The notes beneath the pieces were generated by a model. It was not told the origin of the DNA. It ran no database searches and saw only the letters and a list, made by a program, of their open reading frames with translations. From contig JABDMD010000011.1 of NCBI GenBank assembly GCA_013001685.1, forward strand, positions 1-48,344: 48,344 nt of DNA, written 5' to 3'. Source of the stretch: Gammaproteobacteria bacterium (lineage in GTDB: Bacteria; Pseudomonadota; Gammaproteobacteria; UBA4575). How positions within the stretch are numbered: position 1 is the first letter of the stretch; each line of letters opens with the position of its first letter. Made by a program: the position numbers and the translations under genes. This document shows, in pieces, positions 3,210 through 13,857 of the stretch.

Positions 3210-3493
3210 GATGTGTAAAAATCTAATTTTGAGAAATGACAGTCTAGCAAGAATGGCCTTAATTTTGGCGAATACTGTATTTTCAGGAGGTCAGGCGGGG
3301 TCATTCTAACGACGAACTTATTTGCTAAATTGGCTTATACAGCAAGCCGTGAACTGTGTATCTGCTTGTTTTATGCCCTTGGGCATGGTGTCTACTAACG
3401 AATAAAGTATAAATTGCATGAGACTTCATGGGGGTATCTGGTGCTATACTTATTGCCCATAAAAAAAATCAATTAGGCTTCAAAGAGTTCTCC

Positions 3494-11254: not shown

Positions 11255-11336
11255 AGCAATTTCCTGGTTAGGTTAGTGTTTGTACAGATCAGCAGCTGGT
11301 TTTGATTTAAGCTAGTGTAATCTGAGTTGACATAAT

Positions 11337-11381
11337 TTTAGACCTAGTCTAAAGTTTAAATCAGTTTAGACTAAGTCTAAA
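11337..11381. promoter_or_regulatory. Tandem 17-bp palindromic operators upstream of the rubrerythrin operon
   Basis: Two near-identical inverted repeats occur here: TTTAGACCTAGTCTAAA at 11337-11353 and TTTAGACTAAGTCTAAA at 11365-11381. They match at 15 of 17 positions, differ only at the two positions next to the centre, and are 28 bp apart centre to centre. A -10-like TATACA at 11383-11388 directly follows the second site. This geometry suggests a dimeric repressor or redox sensor blocking the promoter. I cannot assign the regulator family from the motif alone, and no regulator gene is adjacent. Confidence 0.7.
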
Positions 11382-11444: not shown

Positions 11445-11861
11445 ATGTCTCTAAAAGGTAGTAAGACAGAAGGTAATTTAAAAGACGCATTTGCGGGGGA
11501 ATCACAAGCTAATCGTAGATATCTATACTTCGCAGCAAAGGCAGACGTAGAAGGATACAACGATGTTTCTGCAGTATTCCGTTCAACAGCGGAAGGTGAA
11601 ACCGGACATGCTCACGGTCATCTTGAGTACTTAGAAGAGTGTGGCGATCCTGCAACTGGTCTTCCAATTGGCTCAACATCTGACAACTTAAAAGCAGCCA
11701 TTGCTGGTGAAACTCATGAGTACACAGATATGTACCCTGGCATGGCCAAAACTGCACGTGACGAAAATTTCGATGAAGTTGCGGATTGGTTCGAAACGCT
11801 TGCTAAAGCAGAGCGTTCGCATGCGAATCGTTTTCAAAAAGCATTAGACACTCTAGACTAG
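11445..11861 (+). CDS. Rubrerythrin-type diiron peroxidase (no rubredoxin domain)
   Basis: A 138-residue four-helix ferritin-like protein. The diiron ligands of rubrerythrin are all visible: Glu19 ([10 protein letters not shown]), Glu52 and His55 ([10 protein letters not shown]), Glu89 and Glu92 ([10 protein letters not shown]), Glu123 and His126 (AERSHANRF). Known rubrerythrins reduce hydrogen peroxide using electrons from rubredoxin or an NADH chain. This one lacks the C-terminal rubredoxin FeS4 domain, so it needs an external electron donor; the downstream Fe-S gene is the obvious candidate. A good ribosome binding site (CTGGAGGTAG) precedes the ATG. Confidence 0.93.
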
Positions 11862-11880
11862 TGTCGAATTAGATTTTGCA

Positions 11881-11914
11881 AATGTACAAATCGTATCGAT
11901 ACGATTTGTACATT
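11881..11914. promoter_or_regulatory. Perfect 34-bp palindrome between rubrerythrin and Fe-S genes
   Basis: Bases 11881-11914 equal their own reverse complement over all 34 positions, with centre GTATCGATAC and ends AATGTACAAA and TTTGTACATT. Flanking TGCA and GCA extend the match with one bulge. In RNA it would form a 15-bp stem with a 4-base loop. No T-run follows, so it is not a classical terminator. It may be a processing or stability hairpin that sets rubrerythrin above the downstream genes, or a protein-binding site. Confidence 0.7.
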
Positions 11915-11942
11915 GCAGAATTTATTACACAGCGGGAATTTT

Positions 11943-13271
11943 ATGAGAGAAGGTAGCCTAGATGCGCCTACGCGGCATCCTATTGACTGGGAAGATCCAA
12001 AATTTTATGACGTAGAAGATCTAAATGTTGAGCTAGAGCGTGTTTTTGATATCTGTCATGGATGCAGACGCTGTGTAAGTCTGTGTAATTCTTTTCCAAC
12101 ACTATTTGACCTGGTGGATGAATCAGAAACCATGGAAGTGGATGGTGTTGCAAAAGATGATTACATTAAAGTCGTTGATCAATGTTATCTCTGCGACTTA
12201 TGTTTCCTTACTAAATGCCCATATGTTCCGCCACATGAATGGAATGTTGATTTCCCGCATCTAATGCTGCGTGCCAAAGCAATTAAATTTAAACAGCAGG
12301 GTGCATCAAAGCGTGACAATATGCTTAGCAACACAGATAAAAATGGAAAATTTTTTGGAATACCTATAGTTGCGCAAGCTGTAAATGCAGTAAATAAAAA
12401 CTCCCTTGCGCGCAAAGGCATGCAAAAAGTTCTAGGAGTAAGTAGCAGTGCTTACTTGCCTGAATACCAAAGCAAGTCAGCAAAAAAACAATTTGCCAAA
12501 CATCAAACATCTGTGAGTACTCCAAAAGCAATTGGCAGCACAACAGGCAAGGTAGCTATTTACGCAACCTGCTATGGAAATCATAATGAACCTGGATTAG
12601 TGGGAGACTTAATAAAGATATTTGAGCACAATAACATCGCAACTAAACTAATTACTCAAGATAAATGTTGCAGCATGCCAAAACTAGAATTGGGTGATCT
12701 TGAATCCGTTGCAGCAAACAAAAATCATAATATTCCCATCATGCAAGAAGCGATTGATGATGATTGGGATATCATCGCTCCAATTCCTTCATGTGTATTA
12801 ATGTTTAAACAAGAACTGCCATTGATGTTTCCAGAAGATGAAGCGTTAAAGAAAGTGCAGCAATCGATTTTTGACCCGTTTGAATACTTAGCGCTACGTC
12901 ATAAAGAAGATTTACTTAATACAGAATTTAAAACTACGCTTGGTAAAGTCTCTTACCATGCACCATGCCATTTGCGTGTACAGAAGATTGGAAATAAAAC
13001 CAGAGATATTTTGAATTTGGTTCCTGACACAGAGATTGAGCTGATTGAGCGTTGTGCAGGGCATGATGGTACTTATGCGGTAAAAGAAGAATTCCATGAA
13101 ATCTCTATGAAAATCGCTAGGCCTGTTGTGAATAAAATCAAAAAGAATGAACCAAACTATTTTTCCAGTGATTGCCCATTAGCTGGGTATCACTTGGCAA
13201 ATGGTGTTGATAATAACAAGTCGTCGCCAACACATCCAATAACTTTATTGAAAACTGCGTACGGTCTTTAA
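11943..13271 (+). CDS. Heterodisulfide reductase/GlpC-like Fe-S oxidoreductase
   Basis: A 442-residue electron-transfer protein. The N-terminal ferredoxin-like part has two [4Fe-4S] motifs: CHGCRRCVSLC (Cys38, 41, 44, 48) and CYLCDLCFLTKCPYVPP. The C-terminal part has two CCG (Cys-rich) domains, seen as ATCYGNH...KCCSMP and HAPCHLRVQ...ERCAGHDG, the type found in HdrB/HdrD, GlpC and LutA. I start it at ATG 11943 because the homologous part begins there; an in-frame TTG at 11913 lies inside the palindrome. It likely passes electrons to rubrerythrin. No membrane segment is seen. Confidence 0.88.
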   Translation: MREGSLDAPTRHPIDWEDPKFYDVEDLNVELERVFDICHGCRRCVSLCNSFPTLFDLVDESETMEVDGVAKDDYIKVVDQCYLCDLCFLTKCPYVPPHEWNVDFPHLMLRAKAIKFKQQGASKRDNMLSNTDKNGKFFGIPIVAQAVNAVNKNSLARKGMQKVLGVSSSAYLPEYQSKSAKKQFAKHQTSVSTPKAIGSTTGKVAIYATCYGNHNEPGLVGDLIKIFEHNNIATKLITQDKCCSMPKLELGDLESVAANKNHNIPIMQEAIDDDWDIIAPIPSCVLMFKQELPLMFPEDEALKKVQQSIFDPFEYLALRHKEDLLNTEFKTTLGKVSYHAPCHLRVQKIGNKTRDILNLVPDTEIELIERCAGHDGTYAVKEEFHEISMKIARPVVNKIKKNEPNYFSSDCPLAGYHLANGVDNNKSSPTHPITLLKTAYGL

Positions 13272-13272
13272 G

Positions 13273-13857
13273 ATGCAAAAACTAACCAGACAAGATTTAC
13301 ATTCGTTAGAAGATTACTCCGCAATGCGCGATGATTTTCGTGCACAAATTATAAAGCATAAAAAGAATCGAGTATTGCAAGTTGGTCCTAATGTCACCAT
13401 GCACTTTGAAGACCGTTTAGTAATGCAATATCAAATTCAAGAAATGCTGCGTGCCGAAAAGATTTTTGAAAGCAATGGCATTCAAGAGGAGCTGGATGCA
13501 TACAATCCAATGATTCCAGATGGAAGTAACTGGAAAGTAACTTTTATGATTGAATTTCCCGATCCTGATGAGCGTGCTGTGCGGTTAAGAGAAATGCTGG
13601 GAATTGAAGATGCGACGTATGTGCAAGTATCTGGTCACGGTAAAGTCCATCCAATCTCTGATGAAGACTTGCCACGAGAAACAGCAGAAAAGACGTCTTC
13701 TGTACACTTTATGCGTTTTGAATTAACACAAGAAATGGTAAATGCATTAAAAGAAGGCGCAGCTTTAAGTGTGGGGATTGATCATCCTGAATATCAGCAT
13801 GCTATTGAAGCATTGTCAGGATCAATGAGAGATTCGTTAGTGGCGGATTTGGATTAA
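13273..13857 (+). CDS. DUF3501 family protein
   Basis: A 194-residue soluble protein fitting DUF3501: LTRQDLHSLEDYSAMRDDFR, then VLQVGPNVTMHFEDRLVMQYQIQEMLRAE, then AYNPMIPDGSNWKVTFMIEFPD. It starts one base after the Fe-S oxidoreductase stop, so the pair is surely co-transcribed and probably coupled. DUF3501 genes recur next to rubrerythrin and CCG Fe-S oxidoreductase genes, which implies a shared pathway, but no biochemical role is known to me. No cofactor-binding Cys cluster is present. Its last four bases overlap the end of the convergent minus-strand gene. Confidence 0.85.
   Translation: MQKLTRQDLHSLEDYSAMRDDFRAQIIKHKKNRVLQVGPNVTMHFEDRLVMQYQIQEMLRAEKIFESNGIQEELDAYNPMIPDGSNWKVTFMIEFPDPDERAVRLREMLGIEDATYVQVSGHGKVHPISDEDLPRETAEKTSSVHFMRFELTQEMVNALKEGAALSVGIDHPEYQHAIEALSGSMRDSLVADLD

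Follow-up and report, generated by a model that had tools for sequence, protein, structure and literature searches.

A 34-bp perfect palindrome behind a gammaproteobacterial rubrerythrin gene is one species' form of an intercistronic RNA hairpin

A perfect palindrome separates rbr and RFO in a predicted three-gene operon

The window, comprising all 48,344 nucleotides of contig JABDMD010000011.1 of a gammaproteobacterial assembly (GCA_013001685.1), contains on its plus strand the rbr gene encoding an aerobic-type rubrerythrin of 138 aa (11445–11861; PF02915, E = 8.7e-29). This is followed by the RFO gene, encoding a CCG/GlpC-like Fe-S oxidoreductase (11943–13271; PF02754, with the GlpC models scoring below their cut-off, and named according to PMC5114695), and, 1 nt past RFO, by a third gene encoding a DUF3501 protein (13273–13857; PF12007, E = 3e-71). 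The combination RBR-RFO-DUF3501 was published as the 'aerobic-type' rubrerythrin cluster (PMC5114695), and the window has the same three genes, with rbr adjoining the RFO (CCG) and DUF3501 genes in the order rbr-RFO-DUF3501. The best promoter-like site in the region (TTGACA-17-TAAAGT, 11327–11355, plus strand, detected by consensus scan only) precedes rbr, and the same scan showed no promoter-like site in the gap between rbr and RFO. An internal promoter for RFO was thus rejected, and the natural reading is that the three genes form one operon, with co-transcription predicted from the gene order. A literature search for transcript studies of the rbr-RFO-DUF3501 operon returned nothing relevant, and a text search of the main text of PMC5114695 gave no hit for intergenic or regulatory sequences, so that the hairpin described below is seemingly undescribed there.

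The rbr-RFO gap is 81 nt in length (11862–11942), extending from the rbr stop codon, which ends at 11861, to the ATG startcodon of RFO at 11943. The first-pass annotation had claimed a perfect 34-bp palindrome without a loop between the rubrerythrin gene and its partner gene, and both its perfection and its placement were confirmed: positions 11881–11914 consist of two arms of 17 nt each (AATGTACAAATCGTATC, 11881–11897, and GATACGATTTGTACATT, 11898–11914), which are 100% complementary and have a spacer of 0 nt. It is the sole loop-free perfect palindrome of such length in the window, the runner-up having arms of 7 bp, and from the base composition only 5.3e-6 loop-free palindromes with 17-bp arms are expected per window. 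A 301-base probe matched only its own site in a BLAST search of the 2.64-Mb genome, which makes it single copy, and the central 24 bases of the palindrome had neither a second site in the genome at up to 3 mismatches nor an exact match in viral contigs; a repeat or mobile element was rejected on these grounds. An assembly or contig-end artefact was rejected as well, since the hairpin reappears at this position in a complete genome of the same genus (L005).

The palindrome is the core of a longer stem-loop in the sense RNA

When read as RNA of the plus strand, the palindrome (11881–11914) forms 15 pairs and a UCGA loop. The stem is longer than the palindrome, with six extra pairs formed by TTTTGC (11874–11879) and GCAGAA (11915–11920) past a bulged A, and the whole stem-loop of the genus, composed of the UUUUGC(A)/GCAGAA outer stem and the palindrome with its one bulged A, covers 11874–11920 on the plus strand with 21 pairs counted. 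The RNA of the rbr-RFO gap folds at −29.3 kcal/mol, with a z of −6.9 versus dinucleotide shuffles, and thus contains a stable sense-strand stem-loop within the gap of a single predicted operon. Membership of a known RNA family was rejected, as Rfam gave no match above the gathering score and only chance matches to microRNA models far below threshold.

Pairing rather than sequence is conserved within the genus

The same hairpin occupies this position in three further genomes of the genus, but with a loop of 6–8 nt, which reads ATTAAC in G001 and G002 and TAATTACG in G003, at the position where the source genome has ATCGAT (11895–11900, plus strand). In the alignment of four sequences from these four genomes, 95.2% of cells were paired, and 4 of the 21 stem pairs had changed on both sides (A-U/G-C, C-G/U-A, A-U/G-C and U-A/C-G), one of the four being gained when the bulged A was moved one base post hoc, the earlier, further-5′ placement having left one broken pair in G001. 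The covariation score of 0.325 was reached by 2 of 500 shuffles, which treat the sequences without regard to their relatedness, and dropped to ≤0.183 in a sliding control once the partner was shifted. In addition, five changes were one-sided (UG/UA, CG/UG, CG/UG, GC/GU and UA/UG), and all five retained a Watson-Crick or wobble pair on the plus strand, whereas read on the minus strand the wobbles become A.C mismatches. With few sequences (four) and shuffles blind to relatedness, most weight lies on the sliding control and on the wobble direction, the latter telling which strand matters. Conservation of pairing in relatives had been proposed as a check in the first-pass annotation, and the pairing, rather than the sequence, was indeed kept through the four compensatory pairs and the G.U changes, favouring the hairpin among the options that it had listed.

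As the one-sided changes pair only on the rbr-sense strand, they point to a stem in the rbr RNA rather than a DNA operator or cruciform, with selection apparently acting on the RNA of that strand. An operator bound by a dimeric regulator inside the operon would account for a site that is long and perfectly symmetric, in an operon that also has operator-like palindromes upstream, but the centre and the arms vary between sister species in paired fashion, with one-sided changes that fit RNA wobble only, and the sequence is unrelated between genera. In addition, the best promoter-like site is about 500 bp upstream of the palindrome, the gap has no such site of its own, and the palindrome lacks a second genomic copy at ≤3/24 mismatches, where an operator would be expected to recur as a conserved sequence near promoters. 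The wobble direction, the unconserved sequence and the lack of further sites led us to reject an operator at 11881–11914, which we regard as very improbable. A similarly small probability is given to a DNA-level structure (a cruciform, or a replication or recombination site) or what is left of a mobile repeat: extrusion is possible in principle for loop-free palindromes, but the versions in the same genus contain wobble mismatches and a 6–8-nt loop, and the element is present as a single genome copy without a match in the viral contigs. The operator and cruciform options of the first-pass annotation were therefore abandoned, the one-sided changes fitting single-stranded RNA only and no second site having been found.

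The loop-free symmetry is incidental

The loop-free form depends on six central bases which were found in one assembly only, that of the source genome. The ATTAAC loop of G001 and G002 differs from the corresponding ATCGAT by three transitions, and in-silico replacement of ATCGAT by ATTAAC changed the folding energy from −29.3 to −28.4 kcal/mol, so that the loop-free form gains only 0.9 kcal/mol. On account of these few transitions and the small gain, the perfect symmetry is an incidental by-product that is peculiar to the source genome, adds little, and came from few changes within the loop. The view that the loop-free state itself had been retained did not survive the comparison with relatives of the same genus, which carry a loop. 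The accompanying argument, that such palindromes are unstable and that persistence hence suggests function, also fails for a palindrome of 34 bp, which is short, and the real evidence is provided by the compensatory changes. A review puts the number of palindromes shorter than 40 bp in the human genome at about 13 million (PMC7999016), and a study on palindrome hairpins in E. coli worked with a 460-bp palindrome (PMC4245961); persistence of a 34-bp palindrome alone is no proof of function. Chance may well account for the final loss of the 6-nt loop, but a chance palindrome without any role is highly improbable, given the 5e-6 expected in the window, the pairing conserved in the genus and the position-conserved hairpins across the class. 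For the analysis of single genomes, this example indicates that loop-free perfect symmetry can be a by-product of a conserved RNA stem.

Hairpins recur at the same position across the class

A class-wide set of 95 distinct rbr-RFO gaps was drawn from the whole genomes and named genome contigs of relatives, the window included. The z versus dinucleotide shuffles was below −2 in 73 of the 95 gaps (median −2.9), in 81/95 the stem comprised ≥10 pairs, and it started at a median of 20 nt past the rbr stop codon. Outside the genus the hairpin sequences look unrelated, with the position being the same across the class, hence it is the place and the structure that recur and not the letters. The palindrome is thus one species' form of an ordinary RNA hairpin located just past rbr in many related bacteria. 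Some relatives (for example L016, L022 and L024) have no convincing hairpin in the gap, and the hairpin is therefore not indispensable.

Background levels of structure were obtained from 448 kb of the genus, consisting of the window and 400 kb of the complete sister genome G002. Gaps of 60–150 nt between same-strand genes had a median z of −0.42, with 14/54 below −2, and the class-wide excess over these values is indicative only, the background being drawn from one genus. The rbr-RFO gap was the most structured of the 54 same-strand gaps (z of −6.0 in the background scan), and its G002 counterpart had a z of −5.7. Convergent gaps, at gene ends, had a median z of −3.8, and none of the 10 divergent gaps was below −2; strong hairpins thus mark transcript ends in this genus, and the rbr gap resembles such an end although the operon continues.

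Two other hairpins were observed during these comparisons. The rbr-RFO gap of a Lysobacterales MAG (L074, about 3425–3466) has a near-perfect hairpin that is longer still, with 20-bp arms and a 2-nt loop (GGGGTCAGAGTAAAAACTCC), and which resembles a dispersed repeat. A hairpin with 18-bp arms and a 6-nt loop was found at G002:C1 395649–395690 (L131 5649–5690), with no called ORF of ≥90 aa nearby, and is possibly a non-coding RNA or a repeat.

Proposed role of the hairpin at the 3′ end of the rbr mRNA

We consider it likely that the palindrome serves as an intercistronic RNA hairpin which gives the rbr mRNA its own 3′ end, either by protection/processing or by leaky termination, and raises Rbr over RFO and DUF3501. 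The palindrome would be transcribed as a stem on the rbr-RFO-DUF3501 RNA, which may be cut or decay downstream, with exonucleases halting at the stem and the rbr part being protected; alternatively, the polymerase may halt at the hairpin in part of the rounds, as in leaky intrinsic termination. Both routes would leave a stable mRNA of rbr alone and smaller amounts of RFO/DUF3501 mRNA, which would allow one operon to supply more of the peroxidase than of the protein predicted to be its electron-transfer partner. The structure, strand, compensatory conservation and positional recurrence of the hairpin were observed directly in this analysis; from sequence, we infer the 3′ end at the hairpin and the excess of Rbr, the hairpin probably marking or protecting the end of the rbr mRNA and so keeping rubrerythrin above its partner proteins. 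Unequal expression of the three genes is hence predicted for this little-studied operon, and a striking palindrome finds an explanation as a routine mRNA hairpin, ordinary in kind.

Leaky intrinsic termination as the sole route, with the hairpin acting as an attenuator that stops the polymerase in most rounds and lets it pass in the others, is possible but somewhat doubtful. A T-run is located directly past the hairpin in several relatives (L017, L018, L038, L039 and L072), and the tails are partly U-rich in the window (UUUAUUA) and in G001 (UUAUUUC), but the genus as a whole lacks a conserved U-run, the tails being GUUCUAAAAC in G002 and GAAUUCAAAA in G003. None of the four genus members has a U-run directly past the stem, as an intrinsic terminator would, although members of some other genera do; at least 4 T in the 8 nt past the folded stem were present in 21/95 relatives, a count that may be lowered by the fold absorbing part of the T-run. 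The first-pass annotation had considered termination unlikely because no T-run follows the palindrome, and a terminator scan indeed does not call the rbr-RFO gap hairpin. The missing T-run is nevertheless weaker evidence than was stated, since strong hairpins between convergent genes of the genus often lack a clean T-run too and some relatives have one at this very place, which leaves leaky termination with some probability. The arrangement resembles internal (leaky) Rho-independent terminators of operons in having a hairpin past the first gene and a U-run in some relatives, and differs from these in that a U-run is not a conserved feature of this genus. For this genus, the evidence leans slightly towards protection or processing rather than termination, as the stem lacks a conserved U-run behind it and no terminator was found in the scan, and the processing or stability hairpin of the first-pass annotation is, as to structure, the best supported of its options, with pairing kept by compensatory and G.U changes.

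Protection of the upstream message by intercistronic stem-loops has been demonstrated by experiment for the cip-cel operon of Ruminiclostridium cellulolyticum (PMC10311766). Both cases have a strong stem-loop between co-transcribed genes with products that are plausibly needed unequally, and in both the loop and the sequence are free to vary. For cip-cel, which belongs to another phylum with other nucleases, both the cleavage sites and the levels of the transcripts have been measured (PMC10311766), whereas the rbr hairpin is known from sequence alone. A more far-reaching reading, which we regard as unlikely, is that aerobic-type rubrerythrin operons throughout the Gammaproteobacteria share the post-rbr hairpin as a regulatory element of ancient origin and conserved position. 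Such an element would fix the Rbr:RFO:DUF3501 ratio, possibly in response to peroxide or iron with a nuclease or antiterminator as mediator, and would be free to change in sequence.

Operator-like palindromes are located at the rbr promoter

Two conserved operator-like palindromes, TTTAGACCTAGTCTAAA (11337–11353) and TTTAGACTAAGTCTAAA (11365–11381), respectively overlap and follow the promoter-like site of rbr, together covering 11337–11381. Both fit the motif TTTAGAC(C/T)nAGTCTAAA, which is also seen ahead of rbr elsewhere in the genus, in the family and in other families. We take its 7-1-7 layout to be that of the boxes of the Fur superfamily (PerR/Irr-like), making the two palindromes candidate regulator sites, and the genome contains three Fur-family genes. 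A weaker copy of the motif (TCTAGACGCAGTCTAAA, or one base different) is present in three genomes of the genus (G000:C7:22903–22919, in L147; G002:C1:48597; and G001:C118:2500). The copy in G000 lies in the gap just before an ORF which by eye was identified as NUDIX-type hydrolase-like (L147 2466–2969), and which may represent a second target.
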